The translations under genes and the position numbers were made by a program. Below, piece after piece: positions 20,643 to 26,461 of a stretch of DNA of 53,471 nucleotides (position 1 is its first letter; each line of letters starts with the position of its first letter). This stretch comes from Acidimicrobiia bacterium (GTDB lineage Bacteria; Actinomycetota; Acidimicrobiia; Spongiisociales; ZC4RG35): NCBI GenBank assembly GCA_025937235.1, contig JAICRU010000010.1, forward strand, positions 1 to 53,471, read 5' to 3'. The notes beneath the pieces were generated by a model. That model saw only the letters and a list, made by a program, of their open reading frames with translations. It was not told the origin of the DNA and did no database searches.

Positions 20643-21914
20643 TTGACCACGCCGGTTGGTAACGAATTTCAGTCGCCGATGTATCACGAAGCGGCCGGTC
20701 AGTTCGACCGGGTGGCCCGGCTCATGGGTCTCGACGACAACGTGGCCGATCGGCTCCGTGTCCCGCAGAAATCCACCATGGTCAGCTTCCCGTTCCGTCG
20801 CGACACCTACTCCGAGGTGGAGACCCTGTTCGGATATCGGGTACAGCACCTGACCACCATGGGCCCAACCAAGGGCGGCATCCGCTACGCGGCCGACGTC
20901 GACCTCGGGGAAGTCGCCGCCCTGGCCATGTTGATGACCTGGAAGTGCGCCATCGTGGGTGTCCCTTTTGGTGGCGCCAAGGGCGGGGTGAGAGTCGACC
21001 CGATGGGTCTGTCCCGGGCCGAGCTGCAACGGGTCACTCGCCGCTTCACCATGGAGATCATCAATGTGATCGGGCCGGAGACGGACATCCCTGCCCCCGA
21101 CCTGGGTACCAACGAGCAGGTCATGGCGTGGCTGATGGACACCTATTCCCAGCATGTCGGCCACTCGGTCCCGGCTGTGGTGACCGGGAAGCCCCCCGCC
21201 CTCGGTGGCAGCGTCGCCCGACGGGAGGCGACCGGGCGTGGGCTGATGTTCCTCCTACCGCAGGCGGCCGGGATTCGTCAGATGAACCCCAACGAGCTCA
21301 CGATCGCGATCCATGGCTTCGGGAACGTCGGCCGTTATGCCGCCATTGCCGGCCACCAGATGGGGCTGAGGATCGCTGCGGTGTCCGACATCTCAGGCGC
21401 GTTGTATGACCCGGAGGGCCTCGATGTCGATGCAGTGGCCAAGTGGGTCGACGAGAACCGGTTCCTGGAGGGCTTCCCGGACGCCGACTTCATCGACGGG
21501 GACAAGATCTTCGTGCTCCCTGTCGACGTCCTCGTCCCGGCCGCCATCCAGAACGTGATCCGCGCCGACAACGCCGGGGACATCCAGGCCAAGATCGTGA
21601 TCGAGGGGGCCAACGGGCCCACGACGATCGAGGGGGATGACATCCTCAGGGAGAGAGGAATCCTGGTGATCCCCGACATCCTGGCCAATGCCGGGGGTGT
21701 CACCGTCTCGTACTTCGAGTGGGTACAGGACGTCCAGAAGTACTTCTGGACCGAGAACGAGGTAGTGGCCCGTCTCCGCGAGATCATGACTCGTGCCTTC
21801 AGCGACGTGCACAACGTGGCCCTGAACGAAGACGTCGATCTGAGGACGGCGGCCCTGATCAAGGGGATCCGCAAGGTGGCAGACGCCAAGTTGGTCCGGG
21901 GGATCTTCCCCTAG
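20643..21914 (+). CDS. Glu/Leu/Phe/Val dehydrogenase (glutamate dehydrogenase-like)
   Basis: A 423-residue oxidoreductase that interconverts an amino acid and its 2-oxo acid with NAD(P). The substrate-binding segments GPTKGGIRY and PFGGAKGGVRVDP (with the catalytic lysine) are in the first half. The nucleotide-binding loop is GFGNVGR in the second half. The length is typical of glutamate dehydrogenase, the likely activity, but branched-chain or phenylalanine specificity cannot be ruled out. The start is TTG, supported by a strong GGAGG. The stop overlaps the stop of the opposing nuclease gene within the tetranucleotide CTAG. Confidence 0.93.
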   Translation: MTTPVGNEFQSPMYHEAAGQFDRVARLMGLDDNVADRLRVPQKSTMVSFPFRRDTYSEVETLFGYRVQHLTTMGPTKGGIRYAADVDLGEVAALAMLMTWKCAIVGVPFGGAKGGVRVDPMGLSRAELQRVTRRFTMEIINVIGPETDIPAPDLGTNEQVMAWLMDTYSQHVGHSVPAVVTGKPPALGGSVARREATGRGLMFLLPQAAGIRQMNPNELTIAIHGFGNVGRYAAIAGHQMGLRIAAVSDISGALYDPEGLDVDAVAKWVDENRFLEGFPDADFIDGDKIFVLPVDVLVPAAIQNVIRADNAGDIQAKIVIEGANGPTTIEGDDILRERGILVIPDILANAGGVTVSYFEWVQDVQKYFWTENEVVARLREIMTRAFSDVHNVALNEDVDLRTAALIKGIRKVADAKLVRGIFP

Positions 21915-22699
21915 TCCCCGGGGCCGGAGAAGGCCGGGCAGATCTCCTGGAACGAGCACCAATTGCACAGGGTCCCGGGCCGGGTTGGGAAGTTGCGGGT
22001 GGCCAAGGCCCGGTCGATGGCGTTCCACAACGCCCGTAGCTGGGAGTCCATGGCATCGAGCTGGCGATCGTCGATCTCCAATCGGTACAGGGTCGGCCCG
22101 CTCAGATAGAGGAGCCGAAGCTCCTTTGGGGTCTCACCGCTCCGTCGCCTGATCAGCAACGCATAGATCTTCAATGCGAAGAAGGCAGGGAGGGCGAAAC
22201 GCTCAGGTGGCGCCTTGCCGGTCTTGTAGTCGGTGATGACAAGACGCCCATCGTCGTCACGATCCATCCGGTCGAGGATGCCCCTGATGGTGATCCCGTC
22301 GAGATCCTCCAGCATGTCGAGCTCTCGGTCGATCGGGTCGAGACGAGCCGGGTCCTCGATGCTGAAGTAGTTGGCCAGCAGGACCAGCGAATCGACACCC
22401 CAGCGCCGCTCCTCCTCGGTGTCGGAGAACAGCCCGGTGAACTCGTCCGAGCCTCGGAGCTCGGACCATGCCTCCCGAAAGAGATCGTAGAGAAGCTGTG
22501 GTGAGCGTTCTGCGGAGGGATGGTCGAATAGGCGCTGGAGGGCGAGGTGGGCGGTGGTGCCGCGGGCCTGATAGATCGATGCCGGCTCGGCGAGACGGTC
22601 GATGGCGCGGAACTTGAAGAGCTGGGGGCACGTCTTGAAGTCCCCCGCCCGGCTCGGGGAAAGGGTCTCGAGAGGTGACAGCTCCAGTTCGACGGTCAT
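21911..22699 (-). CDS. RecB-family PD-(D/E)XK nuclease with four-cysteine Fe-S motif
   Basis: A 262-residue stand-alone nuclease. It has SRAGDFKTCPQLFKFR at the start (first cysteine), then GILDRMD and ITDYKTG (the D/DxK catalytic residues) and ends with LCNWCSFQEIC (three cysteines), the same four-cysteine frame as the nuclease domains of AdnA and AdnB. It resembles Cas4/RecB-like single-domain nucleases, but there is no CRISPR locus here. It overlaps the 3' end of the dehydrogenase gene tail to tail. It probably acts in DNA repair; partner unknown. Confidence 0.85.
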   Translation of the reverse strand: MTVELELSPLETLSPSRAGDFKTCPQLFKFRAIDRLAEPASIYQARGTTAHLALQRLFDHPSAERSPQLLYDLFREAWSELRGSDEFTGLFSDTEEERRWGVDSLVLLANYFSIEDPARLDPIDRELDMLEDLDGITIRGILDRMDRDDDGRLVITDYKTGKAPPERFALPAFFALKIYALLIRRRSGETPKELRLLYLSGPTLYRLEIDDRQLDAMDSQLRALWNAIDRALATRNFPTRPGTLCNWCSFQEICPAFSGPGD

Positions 22700-22899
22700 G
22701 CCGGCGAGTGTAAGACGGGCCTGTGACAGGAACGGGGAGCGTCGGGCGGGCCGCCACCAGAGGCGGATTCTCGGCGTGCGACGCGCAGCAAGCGGACGGC
22801 TCCCGATGCCGTCCGCACGTTTCTCTCGGGCCTTTCGTCATGGGGCAGACTGAGCGCGAAAAGATCGTCTAGCCCGCGAAAACAACGGCCCCGTAGGGC

Positions 22900-22928
22900 T
22901 TGACGCTCCCGGGACGATTTCGTACCTT
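22900..22928 (+). promoter_or_regulatory. Putative promoter of the first structured RNA
   Basis: TTGACG (22900-22905) and TACCTT (22923-22928) are 17 bp apart. This is the best sigma-70-type match I found in the window. No protein gene follows on this strand for 2.9 kb. Confidence 0.6.
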
Positions 22929-22934
22929 GCCGTC

Positions 22935-23082
22935 TACCGACACGGGTTCGCCCGGGTCGGGGAAGGCGAGGCTTCGGCCTCTCCGGATCGCCACCTGACT
23001 GGGGGCCCGCTTTCCCGGTCGAGTGGCACTGAGAGCCCCGAGAGGGCTGCGGCTTCGGCCAAGGCTTTCTCGGGGTCTCTCG
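22935..23082 (+). ncRNA. Putative structured non-coding RNA 1
   Basis: About 150 nt that form four successive strong hairpins. SL1: CCGAC(a)CGGG-UUCG-CCCG(g)GUCGG at 22937-22960. SL2: GAGGC-UUCG-GCCUC at 22968-22981, extended by GG/CC. SL3: GCCAC/GUGGC outside (22990-23027) and GACUGGG/CCCGGUC inside. SL4: the final hairpin at 23031-23081. UUCG tetraloops closed by C-G are favourable only on the plus strand, so the transcript should run rightward. A good promoter lies just upstream. I cannot match it to 4.5S, 6S, tmRNA, RNase P or any riboswitch. The rest of the 22700-23157 gap shows no gene. Confidence 0.6.
23031..23081 (+). terminator. Final hairpin of RNA 1, shared with RNA 2
   Basis: GAGAG/CUCUC and CCCCGAGA/UCUCGGGG form a 13-bp stem with one bulge, closed by an inner GGC-UUCG-GCC hairpin. 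The same element, with changes at several sites, is found at 25734-25787. No clear U-run follows. Confidence 0.5.
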
Positions 23083-23157
23083 CGTTCGAGGGCGTGTGGT
23101 CTGCGATCGGCCAGCCGACGCGGGCGTGCCGTCTCCGAGCCGACGTCCCCGGATCGC

Positions 23158-23664
23158 TCAGATGAAGATCGTTTGCGCTCCCTCGGAGAGCTCTATGAAG
23201 TCGCTGGCGCTGATGATCCCCTCCACACGATCGTAGAGGTCCTCGGGCTCGAGGTGCATCATGTCAGCCGACATCTTGCAGGCCCAGAGATGACCACCGG
23301 AGTCGGTGATCATCTCGAGGAACTCGGGGATGTCGGGCACGTCGATGCCCTCGATCTGCTTTTTCATCATGTGGGTGGCGAAGGAGGTCATACCTGGAAG
23401 CCCCATCAACATGGGTGGCATGTGGGTGGCCGGGTTGCCGAGGGGGGTGAACTGCAGGTGTGACATCGTCTCCTTGTTGATGATGTCGAACCCCCAGAAC
23501 GTGAAGAAGAGGTGGGTTTCGATTCCTTCCCCTAGTGCCGCGTTGGCCAGGACCATCCCCGGGTATGCCATGTCCAGCGAGCCCTTGGAGCAGATGATCG
23601 CCAGTTTGCGGCCAGAGCCCAGGTCGTCGAACACGGGGACCGGCGCTTCGAGTGTCAACGTCAT
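23158..23664 (-). CDS. DsrE2-like sulfur-relay protein
   Basis: A 168-residue DsrE/DsrF/DrsH-fold protein. C25 lies in AIICSKGS and C129 in WACKMSADMM; the latter matches the sulfur-carrying cysteine of DsrE2-type proteins. Residues about 85-100 (MGLPGMTSFATHMM) form a methionine-rich hydrophobic stretch often found in this subfamily. A strong GGAGGTG site lies 5 nt before the ATG. It is the last gene of a leftward sqr-dsrC/tusE-dsrE cluster with a 14-bp gap, which points to transfer of sulfane sulfur made by sulfide oxidation. The full sulfur-oxidation machinery (dsrAB, sHdr) is not in the window. Confidence 0.85.
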   Translation of the reverse strand: MTLTLEAPVPVFDDLGSGRKLAIICSKGSLDMAYPGMVLANAALGEGIETHLFFTFWGFDIINKETMSHLQFTPLGNPATHMPPMLMGLPGMTSFATHMMKKQIEGIDVPDIPEFLEMITDSGGHLWACKMSADMMHLEPEDLYDRVEGIISASDFIELSEGAQTIFI

Positions 23665-23678
23665 GTCAGCACCTCCGA

Positions 23679-23993
23679 TCAGACGCAGCCTGCCGGCTTG
23701 GGCAGGCCTGCGATGTATGCCATCTTCTTTGCCGGCTTCTTCGGGAAAAGCTCGAAGAGCCTCTTGGTGGGGATCCCGCCCACGGTCGTGACTCGACGCA
23801 GCGTCGGGGTCTCGCCCATCGCTTTGAAATCGTCACGGATGAACCGGATGGCCGCCCAGTGCTCATCGGTCAGCCGGATATCGATGTTGTCGGCCAGCGT
23901 GGAGGCCAGGTCTTCGGTCCACTCGTCGTAGACCGTCATGAATCCTTCCTGATCGACGTGAACGTCGTGGCCGCCGATGGTCGCAGTGCTCAT
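23679..23993 (-). CDS. DsrC/TusE family protein with a single cysteine
   Basis: A 104-residue small sulfur-relay protein. It ends in AGLPKPAGCV, the family signature, with the penultimate-position cysteine (C103, CysA). The second cysteine of true DsrC, eleven residues earlier, is alanine here (A92 in KKMAYIAG), so by the usual classification it is TusE-like and cannot form the intramolecular trisulfide bridge of DsrC. It starts within the sqr stop (ATGA) and has an AAGGAG site. Tandem placement with sqr and a DsrE-like gene argues for a role in sulfide-derived sulfur transfer rather than tRNA thiolation, but that is inferred. Confidence 0.88.
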   Translation of the reverse strand: MSTATIGGHDVHVDQEGFMTVYDEWTEDLASTLADNIDIRLTDEHWAAIRFIRDDFKAMGETPTLRRVTTVGGIPTKRLFELFPKKPAKKMAYIAGLPKPAGCV

Positions 23994-25252
23994 GGCACCA
24001 TCTCCTTTTCTGAGGTCGGTGTGGGAACGACCCGCTTCTTGCCGCGCATGGACATGGCCGTGGGCACCGGAAGGTCCCGGCCCGGCAGAAGAGCGTTCCA
24101 GTAGAGCCAACGGAAAGCGAGCTTGCCCCAGTGGTTGACCCGGCTCTCCCCCAGCAGTGTCAGGGGGCCAATGCCAGGCAGCGGGTACCGGCCGGGGAGG
24201 GGTTCCACGTCGTAGTTGAAATCGATGAGCATCGCCTTGCCGGAGCCGGATTCGACGAAACAGTTGGCGTGCCCGTCGAAGGAGTGAGTCATTGGCTTGC
24301 CCTTGATGTGCTCGAGGAAGTTGTCGACGAACACATCGACTGCGAAGTGGGCGACCGAGCCGGCTTTCGAGATGGGTAGATCGGCGGCATCGCCGATCGC
24401 GAAGACGTTGTCCCAGTGGGGAGAGAGAAAGGTGTGCTTGTCGACGGGAACACAATTGAGCTCGTTGCCCATGCCGCTCCTCTCGACGTAGGTTGCCCCC
24501 ATGTTGAGCGGGACCGTCACCAGCAGGTCGAAGGGAACGACTCTCTCGTCGAAGGAGATGATCTCCCCGGCATCGACATCGACTCTCTCGATGTAGAAAT
24601 CGGGCTCGATCCTGATGCCCCGCACCTCGAGCATGTCACCGAGCAGACCGGCTGCGACCGGCTTGGTGAATGCGGCGTCGAGCGGGGTCACGTAGGTGAT
24701 GTCGACGCGGTCCCTCATCCCACGCTCTTTGAAGAAGGAGTCGGCGAGAAAGGCGAATTCGAGCGGGGCGACGGGGCACTTGATCGGCATCTCGGTGATG
24801 TGCACCACCAGCCCCCCGCCCTCCCAGGTAGCCAGTCTCTCGCCCAGGGCACGGGCCCCGGCCAGGGTGTAGAAGTCGAATACGTTCTTTCCCCATCCCT
24901 CGGTCATGCCCGGCGTCTGGTCTGGTCGAGGCTCGACGCCGGTGGCGATCACGAGGAAGTCGTACGGGAGTTCGGTCCCGTCGACCAGGACGACATCGTC
25001 GTCGGGACGGACACGATCGATCTGGCCGATCACGAGTTCGACCCCGCTGGTGAGGTAGCGGCTGCGGGTTCGCAATATCTCGTCGGACTGGAAGCGCCCG
25101 AACGGGATGAAGAGATAGCCGGGCTGGTAGTGGTGGGTCTCGTATTGGTCGACGACGCTGACCTGCCATTCATCCTCCGGGAGGAGTGGTCGCATCCGAT
25201 TCGCGACCATGGTCCCCGCTGTGCCGCCGCCTAGCACGAGAAGGCGTTTCAT
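23990..25252 (-). CDS. sqr: Sulfide:quinone oxidoreductase-like flavoprotein
   Basis: A 420-residue FAD-dependent disulfide-reductase-fold enzyme that likely oxidises sulfide to sulfane sulfur and passes electrons to quinone at the membrane. FAD-binding loop GGGTAG is at residues 8-13 and the second FAD motif is AIGDAAD near 287. Three cysteines are present: C159 (IKCPVAP), C267 and C331 (HANCFVESGSGK). C159 and C331 fit the conserved pair of SQR. I chose the ATG at 25252, preceded by AAGGAG, rather than the far upstream open frame. It is the first gene of the sqr-tusE-dsrE operon. Confidence 0.88.
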   Translation of the reverse strand: MKRLLVLGGGTAGTMVANRMRPLLPEDEWQVSVVDQYETHHYQPGYLFIPFGRFQSDEILRTRSRYLTSGVELVIGQIDRVRPDDDVVLVDGTELPYDFLVIATGVEPRPDQTPGMTEGWGKNVFDFYTLAGARALGERLATWEGGGLVVHITEMPIKCPVAPLEFAFLADSFFKERGMRDRVDITYVTPLDAAFTKPVAAGLLGDMLEVRGIRIEPDFYIERVDVDAGEIISFDERVVPFDLLVTVPLNMGATYVERSGMGNELNCVPVDKHTFLSPHWDNVFAIGDAADLPISKAGSVAHFAVDVFVDNFLEHIKGKPMTHSFDGHANCFVESGSGKAMLIDFNYDVEPLPGRYPLPGIGPLTLLGESRVNHWGKLAFRWLYWNALLPGRDLPVPTAMSMRGKKRVVPTPTSEKEMVP

Positions 25253-25335
25253 CACCGCTCCTTGTCCGGGCAGGGACTCCTGTCTGCCACAAGGCCAGAA
25301 TCGGAGGGTTCCCGGAGACCCGATAGGGGACAAGG

Positions 25336-25347
25336 GCCCGATCGGGC
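25336..25347. promoter_or_regulatory. Perfect 12-bp palindrome upstream of sqr
   Basis: GCCCGATCGGGC lies 84 bp before the sqr start, between sqr and the promoter of RNA 2. It could be an operator for a dimeric repressor of the sulfide operon, but no such regulator is encoded nearby. Confidence 0.3.
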
Positions 25348-25399
25348 GGGACCACGGGGATGGCCACAAGCCTTCGCGAAAAAGAATCATCGTATGGAG

Positions 25400-25429
25400 T
25401 TGCCACCTCGATGGGTGCCGGTCTACCTT
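25400..25429 (+). promoter_or_regulatory. Putative promoter of the second structured RNA
   Basis: TTGCCA (25400-25405) and TACCTT (25424-25429) are 18 bp apart. The sequence TACCTTGCC is identical to the -10 region of RNA 1. Confidence 0.5.
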
Positions 25430-25435
25430 GCCCGC

Positions 25436-25790
25436 CACGCCGAAGGGGAAACTCGGCGGCGGCCCGAGCCAAGAGGCGCGGAGAGGCGAGAGCCGCTTCG
25501 AGGCCGTGGAACGGGACCCGGAGCCATCGGGAGACCGAGGGCACCGGGGACTTTCGGAAGATCGGACGGGGATCCTTCGGGATCGTCGAGCGGTCCCCGG
25601 ATGGCGGGTCTCACGACCCGCACAACCATCCCGGAGACGGGAGGGGCGATCTTCGGATCGCAACCTGCCGGAGGCCTCGGCCACCGGTAAGAACTCCACT
25701 CGGAGTTGGGTCCCCGGCCCGACACCGAATGGGCGAGAGTCCCGAGAGGGTCGAGGCTTCGGCCAAGGCTCCCTCGGGGCTTTCTCGTTT
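25436..25790 (+). ncRNA. Putative large structured non-coding RNA 2
   Basis: About 355 nt with a dense set of hairpins. GCCGA/UCGGC lies at 25439-25457. A long-range stem CCGGGGAC (25544-25551)/GUCCCCGG (25593-25600) encloses GAUCC-UUCG-GGAUC. GCGGGUC-UCAC-GACCCGC is at 25604-25621, GCGAUC-UUCG-GAUCGC at 25646-25661, CCGGaGGC-CUCG-GCCaCCGG at 25668-25687 and AACUCC-ACUC-GGAGUU at 25692-25707, then the final hairpin shared with RNA 1. No convincing protein-coding frame exists in 25253-25849. The hallmark conserved blocks of RNase P RNA and tmRNA are absent. The length and compactness suggest a stable RNA of unknown class. Confidence 0.6.
25734..25790 (+). terminator. Final hairpin of RNA 2, shared with RNA 1
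   Basis: CGAGA/UCUCG outside and CCCGAG/CUCGGG inside, capped by a UUCG hairpin and followed by CGTTTCT. About 44 of 52 positions match the element at 23031-23081 by eye, and the outer stem is kept although its unpaired bases differ. Confidence 0.55.
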
Positions 25791-25837
25791 CTGGCGGGCT
25801 TCCTCGCCTCCGCCCGCCGCCCGCCATGCCCCATCGG

Positions 25838-25843
25838 TAGCCT
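25838..25843 (+). promoter_or_regulatory. Putative leaderless -10 box (TAGCCT) of the PH-domain gene
   Basis: TAGCCT fits TANNNT and lies 6 nt before the ATG at 25850; there is no ribosome-binding site. Confidence 0.35.
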
Positions 25844-25849
25844 CAGCCC

Positions 25850-26461
25850 ATGGCCTACCCAGAGAAACTGCTCAGCCCGGGGGAGGAGATCAAGAGCGAG
25901 TTCCGGCCCCATTGGTCGGGGATCGTCTCGGAGCTACTGGTCTCGTTGATCGCACTCGTGGTGATCGTCGTAGTGGCGATACAGGGCTTCAGCTGGGGCG
26001 TCTGGGCGATCGGAGCCATCGTGTTGCTCTGGGTGGTCCTGGTGGCACGCGGTTTCATTCGATGGTTCACCACGTTGCACGTGATCACGAGCGAACGAGT
26101 CATCCATCGCGTGGGCTGGATCTCCAAGCAGGGAAAGGAGATCCCCCTGGAGGTGATCAACGATGTCGCCTTCAGCCAGTCGGCGTGGGAGCGGATCTTC
26201 GGCACCGGCGACCTTCTCATCGAGTCGGCTGGCACCCACGGCCAGACCAAGTACACCGACATCCCCGACCCGGAGGCGGTCCAGTCGTTGATCTATCAGG
26301 TTCGGGAGCAGCGTCAGCACGCCCTCCAGTCGGGCGGGGCGGCTGTCGCCGCTGAGAGCTCGGCCTCCCAGTTGGCCACGTTGTCCCGGCTCCACGACGA
26401 GGGCAAGCTCTCCGACATCGAGTTCGAAGCAGAGAAGCGCAAGCTGCTCGGAGGCACCTGA
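25850..26461 (+). CDS. PH-domain (bPH2) membrane protein with SHOCT tail
   Basis: A 203-residue protein with two predicted membrane helices (about 24-45 and 48-68), followed by a bacterial PH-like domain (about 75-150; VITSERVIHRVGW, then EVINDVAFSQSAWERIFGTG). It ends in a SHOCT motif (LSRLHDEGKLSDIEFEAEKRKLL). This architecture matches YdbS/DUF304-type proteins, whose role is membrane-associated but poorly known. TAGCCT lies 6 nt before the ATG with no Shine-Dalgarno, so it may be leaderless. Its stop overlaps the start of the acyl-CoA ligase. Confidence 0.85.
   Translation: MAYPEKLLSPGEEIKSEFRPHWSGIVSELLVSLIALVVIVVVAIQGFSWGVWAIGAIVLLWVVLVARGFIRWFTTLHVITSERVIHRVGWISKQGKEIPLEVINDVAFSQSAWERIFGTGDLLIESAGTHGQTKYTDIPDPEAVQSLIYQVREQRQHALQSGGAAVAAESSASQLATLSRLHDEGKLSDIEFEAEKRKLLGGT

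Follow-up and report, generated by a model that had tools for sequence, protein, structure and literature searches.

Hairpin-chain RNAs with shared ends and an upstream CGCGAAA box: a predicted family of noncoding RNA genes in Acidimicrobiia

We find that an intergenic gap in a contig of an Acidimicrobiia bacterium (JAICRU010000010.1, positions 1–53,471, referred to below as the window) probably holds an independent noncoding RNA gene belonging to a set of two to three paralogues per genome, and we consider this explanation as a whole to be a good one. Comparative sequence analysis establishes the predicted RNAs, the strand from which they are read, their fold, their shared ends and their distribution, and the RNA in the gap, RNA-L, is almost certainly transcribed as a discrete molecule. 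We propose that each gene would be expressed from its own sigma-70-like promoter and that the RNA would end at its own terminator-like 3′ hairpin. Upstream of the promoter, at a constant spacing, stand one or two copies of the CGCGAAA box, the probable binding sites of a putative, dedicated activator. The body of the RNA would string together short hairpins with UUCG and GNRA tetraloop caps, leaving scarcely any free single strand.

The RNA genes and their neighbourhood

The gap that the original prediction described between sqr and a PH-domain gene is real on re-examination of the window. It spans 25252–25849, from the start of an sqr-like gene on the minus strand (25252) to the PH-domain gene (25850). 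The usual gene order in relatives is PD-(D/E)XK nuclease, RNA-S, RNA-L, PH-domain gene and acyl-CoA ligase, and the locus is syntenic between genera. In this window RNA-S, the second family member, lies 2.5 kb upstream of RNA-L, and DsrE-like, TusA-like and sqr-like genes separate the two; the first two are named from sequence, and the sqr-like gene is Pyr_redox_2 by Pfam. These sulfur genes (23158–25252) are absent from this place in most relatives and are a lineage-specific insertion within the conserved locus. Ahead of the sqr-like gene, 25260–25347 contains the inverted repeats CCTTGTCC/GGACAAGG and CCCGATAGGG/CCCGATCGGG, perhaps an operator of that gene. The features are as follows.

21911–22699, minus strand: PD-(D/E)XK nuclease gene (PF12705, E 1.2e-35), a conserved neighbour of the RNA genes by synteny
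22855–22881, plus strand: twin CGCGAAA boxes of RNA-S (22855–22861 and 22875–22881), found by pattern search
22900–22928, plus strand: RNA-S promoter (TTGACG 22900–22905, TACCTT 22923–22928), in the layout common to family members
22935–23087, plus strand: RNA-S, predicted paralogue of about 155 nt with four hairpins (9 homologues, two-sided change in 15 of 53 pairs)
25375–25381, plus strand: CGCGAAA box of RNA-L, 18 nt before the −35 (sequence and family promoters)
25400–25429, plus strand: sigma-70-like promoter of RNA-L (−35 TTGCCA 25400–25405, −10 TACCTT 25424–25429), position and hexamers kept in homologues
25436–25792, plus strand: RNA-L, predicted transcript of about 355 nt, a hairpin chain with a terminator-like hairpin last (homologues in 11 genomes, folding, compensatory changes; exact ends predicted)
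25438–25458, plus strand: first hairpin of RNA-L, GAAA tetraloop, kept in homologues
25523–25542, plus strand: GNRA-capped hairpin of RNA-L, two-sided change in 3 of 7 pairs
25560–25595, plus strand: core helix of RNA-L with the motif CGGGGAUCCUUCGGGAUCGUC, near-invariant in 11 homologues; outer pairs covary
25604–25621, plus strand: hairpin of RNA-L, two-sided change in 5 of 7 pairs, 96% of cells paired
25626–25645, plus strand: hairpin of RNA-L, GAGA tetraloop (fold comparison with homologues)
25646–25661, plus strand: hairpin of RNA-L, UUCG tetraloop, two-sided change in 3 of 6 pairs
25667–25688, plus strand: hairpin of RNA-L, two-sided change in 5 of 8 pairs
25696–25732, plus strand: hairpin of RNA-L with apical GGUCCCCGGCC, invariant in 11 homologues; two-sided change in 4 of 15 pairs
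25735–25790, plus strand: shared 3′ terminator-like hairpin of RNA-L (covariance model R1, 65.6 bits; 88-sequence alignment)
25850–26461, plus strand: PH-domain gene (PF03703), the usual downstream neighbour by synteny, outside RNA-L

The promoter-like pair of the original prediction is present, and the same arrangement recurs in 117 RNA genes of relatives, although a strict scan with the consensus of E. coli missed it at RNA-L. That scan came back empty because the −10 is TACCTT, and conservation was used to decide instead. The predicted length of about 355 nt fits the positions of promoter and terminator. Upstream, RNA-L in the window has only the second of the usual two boxes, the first being degraded, and in the window's own genus a single good box is left at this gene. 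The general layout is CGCGAAA, about 20 nt, CGCGAAA, 18 nt, TTGnnn, 17–18 nt, TAnnTT, body and 3′ hairpin. Among 153 distinct box-promoters, 117 have the same 3′ hairpin 102–698 nt further on, and the box stands 18 nt from the −35 (TTG) in 116 of these 117, where the search pattern allowed 17–19 nt.

The original prediction was right that an RNA lies here, but it missed the family: genomes carry two to three such genes, which have their ends and upstream box in common, and the family extends over the entire order. The last 55 nt or so of RNA-L recur, in a DNA search, at 23031–23086 in the window and once on another contig; the 3′ hairpin of RNA-S (23031–23087) matches model R1 with 73.2 bits, and a third family member of 164 nt is found on another contig of the same genome (G000:C101). 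This hairpin of about 56 nt is common to all family members and is followed by a short U-tract. Whole RNAs measure 102–698 nt, and the body, which varies between the fixed ends, is rebuilt from one genus to another with its loop chemistry, like the ends, kept constant. As a consequence, sequence searches or searches with a single covariance model miss the RNA family. When 99 related genomes were searched at the DNA level, 60 gave matches at E up to 0.01, some of them short or weak, and long or full-length homologues of RNA-L came from genomes of the same family. With a profile of the 3′ hairpin, nearly all relatives proved to have one to two copies at each locus.

In many genomes the PH-domain gene comes directly after RNA-L, in the same direction, and RNA-L has a terminator-like hairpin at its end, so that this RNA might be read as a cis-acting leader of that gene, of the riboswitch or attenuator kind. 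We regard this as improbable. RNA-S and the third paralogue share promoter, fold style and hairpin without a PH-domain gene behind them; elsewhere another gene follows RNA-L, or the PH-domain gene is on the other side (L045, L092, L145); and we saw no alternative folding by which a ribosome site would be exposed. That RNA-L is not always upstream of the PH-domain gene, and that RNA-S is independent of it, makes a cis leader unlikely, and we favor independent RNA genes.

Fold, covariation and identity

The plus strand of 25420–25795 folds with −215.9 kcal/mol (z = −4.92), against z = −2.64 for the minus strand, and the mean z over 91 family members is −5.4 and −2.8, respectively. In the 3′ two thirds of RNA-L, compared across 11 genomes, 90.4% of cells hold standard pairs. 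Compensatory changes are found both in RNA-L and in the terminal hairpin, as a structured RNA would have it: two-sided change occurs in 33 of 88 RNA-L pairs in the 11 genomes, a count that none of 500 shuffles equalled (17.8 on shuffling), and the signal vanishes when partners are slid. RNA-S, in 9 genomes, gives 15 of 53 pairs against 9.3 (4 of 500 shuffles as high). The 3′ hairpin, aligned over 88 sequences, has compensatory change in 9 of 17 pairs; under a tree-aware null the four highest-scoring column pairs out of 2485 all correspond to pairs in the structure, and 5 of 16 pairs fall below 0.05. The strict tree-aware test is passed by 3 of 45 RNA-S pairs and 4 of 88 RNA-L pairs, a low yield that was expected because the sequences are few and partly invariant.

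The local hairpins claimed for the gap are real and conserved among homologues. The 8-bp long-range stem of the original prediction (25544–25551/25593–25600) fared otherwise: it is present in the sequence but not conserved, forming in 50.7% of homologue cells, and as part of the native fold it was rejected since it competes with the conserved helix 25560–25564/25591–25595; it probably lies outside the native fold of RNA-L. A possible 6-bp pairing of CGGGGA with UCCCCG in RNA-L has both sides invariant, which puts it outside the reach of covariation.

Loop sequences point to the same strand. Across the 91 members, 590 of 717 hairpin loops are tetraloops, with 200 UUCG and 296 GNRA, so that these two kinds make up 496 of the 717 (69%), as against about 15 of 529 in shuffles (3%; UUCG 0.7, GNRA 14.7) and 3 of 622 on the minus strand (UUCG 0, GNRA 3); the counts include one shared 3′ hairpin loop per RNA, usually UUCG. 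Leaving that hairpin aside, the bodies contain 622 tetraloops, foremost CCGCAAGG, GCUUCGGC, GGGAAACC and CCUUCGGG. The plus-strand orientation that had been proposed from the UUCG hairpins is backed by this bias in loops and folding. Bodies have a median of 7 hairpins, and their longest unpaired run has a median of 7 nt and a maximum of 13 nt.

Sequence of this kind is GC-rich and hairpin-rich, and its terminal hairpin is repeated, which could suggest, in place of an RNA gene, a palindromic repeat of the extragenic kind or a structure that GC-rich DNA forms by chance. Given the strand-specific tetraloops, the fixed promoter, the compensatory changes and the one to few copies per genome at a conserved locus, we think that this reading can hardly be correct. 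A protein-coding body was also considered and rejected. None of the three frames is preferred by open reading frames (34, 40 and 35 of 91), an even spread that argues against coding; the lengths are not multiples of three, and a Shine-Dalgarno sequence with a start occurs in 6 of 91 bodies. Open frames number 70 compared with 27 in mononucleotide shuffles, an excess that arises because stop codons, which start with T, are scarce in hairpin DNA. RNA-L combines a promoter and terminator of its own with a conserved, covarying fold and lacks a coding frame, which is what marks an independent RNA gene.

As to identity, no Rfam family matched in the window at the gathering threshold, and loose thresholds gave only chance-level matches around the gap; over 40 related loci both kinds of threshold gave no match and no consistent weak match. 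The Rfam comparison that had been suggested as a check thus left the original prediction standing. RNase P RNA and tmRNA, which it had set aside, have no match at the locus and are both encoded elsewhere in the same genome (RF00010 at G000:C111:33161–33507, 297.6 bits; RF00023 at G000:C58:44007–44357, 165 bits), and SRP RNA, judged at this locus alone, has no Rfam match there either. The 6S RNA model (RF00013) gave no match in the window, in the related loci or in 31 genomes of the order, and models of the OLE/ROOL/GOLLD type gave none in the window and 20 related loci up to E = 2. In the open-access literature on UBA5794, on small RNAs of Acidimicrobiia and on a CGCGAAA/TTCGCG regulator we found no earlier description. 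The idea of a plus-strand structured RNA of an undescribed class is backed by the covariation, by the absence of an Rfam match and by the presence of RNase P RNA and tmRNA elsewhere. The RNA is new at the level of the family, belonging to no Rfam family and being neither RNase P RNA, tmRNA nor 6S, while its mode of action may be of an already known kind.

Distribution and the CGCGAAA box

We infer that the order carrying these RNAs is UBA5794 of the Acidimicrobiia, which contains only uncultured genomes and has been proposed as sister of Ca. Actinomarinales (PMC12008989). The comparison is limited by its use of MAG assemblies. A twin box followed by TTG is found in 106 of 138 genomes of the order compared with 4 of 257 other genomes of the class, and a reversed control of the box pattern gave 0 matches in the first 99 relatives. 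Model R1, built from 88 sequences of the 3′ hairpin, matches in 117 of the 138; outside the order its matches are weaker and occur in 29 of the 257 genomes of the class, and phylum genomes outside the class gave seven weak matches only. Inspection of loci turned up convincing relatives outside the order. Family f23, of another order, has an RNA of 255–264 nt with two-sided change in 20 of 84 predicted pairs. The RNA of family f13 (L209) lies behind TTGACG-N17-TATCTT, adjoining the same PD-(D/E)XK nuclease. The f23 RNAs of about 258 nt (L201–L205, L212) have a conserved 5′ CTCGTAGTTCACG and a hairpin GGCCTGTCCGACACGGG, and in one genome of that family, G326, the RNA occurs twice, as nearly identical copies lying 601 bp from each other. 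When 84,980 named genomes were searched with a stricter promoter pattern, the matches were mostly Acidimicrobiia MAGs, and the scattered others look like chance. A phage or mobile origin was rejected on the basis of the 0 matches of the promoter pattern in viral contigs together with the synteny of the locus between genera.

Genus g10 of the same family differs in that the RNAs were not found with R1, though twin boxes are abundant before a different element. Its genomes have 5–10 dispersed twin CGCGAAA sites each (L179–L198 in G028 and G033; also G011, G024, G030 and G032), and the 3′ hairpin is absent. Most sites precede a conserved element of about 300 nt (GGGCCCACCCCCGCCACCACC ... TTTTTTCGCG), perhaps another multi-copy RNA or a mobile element, and some adjoin DUF222/13E12-like genes as read by eye.

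The box also occurs at replication genes (loci L213–L241; L165–L170, L175, L176, L178; L172; L161–L163). At 14 loci with twin boxes away from these RNAs, nine boxes precede class II ribonucleotide reductase and one precedes dnaB. We fetched the reductase from 40 relatives, and among the 22 upstream regions that could be read an exact CGCGAAA, mostly a single box, is present in 19, compared with 0.9 expected. The dnaA gene has the box in front of it in three genomes that belong to another order, probably Ca. Actinomarinales; dnaB and dnaA were confirmed by Pfam. In these AT-rich genomes of about 1 Mb (family f12, L161–L163) the twin CGCGAAA stands directly before dnaA and is conserved between species. 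The reductase of G092 (L170:1–2319) has an intein with a LAGLIDADG domain. We suggest that the boxed genes, including those of these RNAs and of dNTP synthesis, may form a single regulon, and we lean towards the view that a putative CGCGAAA-binding regulator switches the RNA together with class II ribonucleotide reductase and in certain genomes also with dnaB or dnaA. The box shared with ribonucleotide reductase, DnaB and DnaA yields a testable claim, namely that RNA supply tracks DNA replication.

Possible modes of action and known systems

How the RNAs would act is a more tentative matter. We suggest, with somewhat less than even confidence, that they act in trans as a scaffold or decoy to which a protein would bind, because the hairpins are many and stable and there is no accessible base-pairing seed. 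The lack of a seed also argues against ordinary antisense action. They might instead be base-pairing sRNAs that alter translation when exposed stretches rich in G or C, in RNA-S and RNA-L, anneal to the leaders of mRNAs or to one another: invariant segments that could pair exist (GGGGGCCCGCUUUCCCGG in RNA-S, CGGGGAUCC and GGUCCCCGGCC in RNA-L), and, as noted by eye, the boxed nrdJ and dnaB genes have CUUCCCC repeats in their leaders. The invariant segments are however located in stems, and nearly the whole RNA is taken up by tetraloop-capped hairpins with the short unpaired runs given above, for which reasons we find pairing in trans unlikely.

It could also be that the RNAs functionally replace 6S or Ms1, binding RNA polymerase and tuning transcription with growth. 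In favor of such a role are the absence of 6S matches from the 31 genomes and the two paralogues per genome, which recall the two 6S RNAs of Bacillus, 6S-1 and 6S-2. Ms1 is likewise without sequence similarity between actinobacterial groups (PMC9130861). We still judge the replacement to be a rather poor prospect, as the conserved fold is a row of hairpins and not a rod with a central bubble, there is no Rfam match, and the HAD hydrolase and oxidoreductase genes that neighbor Ms1 (PMC9130861) differ from the conserved neighbors here. A protein-binding scaffold or decoy is the reading that we prefer.

Ms1 of Actinobacteria, which binds the RNA polymerase core (PMC4191392, PMC9130861), resembles the present RNAs in being an actinobacterial intergenic RNA of about 150–400 nt with poor sequence conservation, found through its neighbors and its structure. 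The differences are that PD-(D/E)XK nuclease, PH-domain and acyl-CoA ligase genes flank the RNAs described here, that a row of short tetraloop hairpins takes the place of a 6S-like rod, and that two to three paralogues share their ends. 6S RNA (RF00013) is comparable in its housekeeping role, its own promoter and the second copy that it sometimes has, but it is closed by both ends around a large central bubble, whereas the fold here is a series of local hairpins. OLE (PMC9723947) and similar large RNAs are also orphan, ornate and rich in hairpins, and they are presumed ribonucleoproteins. The RNAs described here are, in contrast to them, shorter, confined to Acidimicrobiia and without a match to the Rfam models, and they combine fixed ends with a body rebuilt from genus to genus. 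ROOL and GOLLD, like OLE, are large ornate bacterial RNAs, and the same differences apply. CsrB and RsmZ are protein-sequestering RNAs, built as arrays of similar hairpins whose number varies between species, and a hairpin array acting as a decoy would be alike in this respect. The loops here are UUCG and GNRA, and no repeated GGA loop motif was seen; capped motifs do recur in the bodies (GGGAAACC, CCGCAAGG), and one motif appears three or more times in 12 of 103 bodies.

Order-wide, multi-copy RNAs with their own promoter box are usually central to the cell, as 6S, tmRNA and Ms1 are, and the RNAs described here may fill a place comparable to that of 6S. To our knowledge, no such order-wide RNA has been described for this bacterial group. 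We hold the chances to be even that they constitute a new RNA class, universal in the order and with relatives in other orders of Acidimicrobiia, that would be defined by fixed ends, a fast-evolving tetraloop array and a replication-coupled CGCGAAA-box regulon. A body that is rebuilt while ends and loop chemistry are kept contradicts a common assumption.
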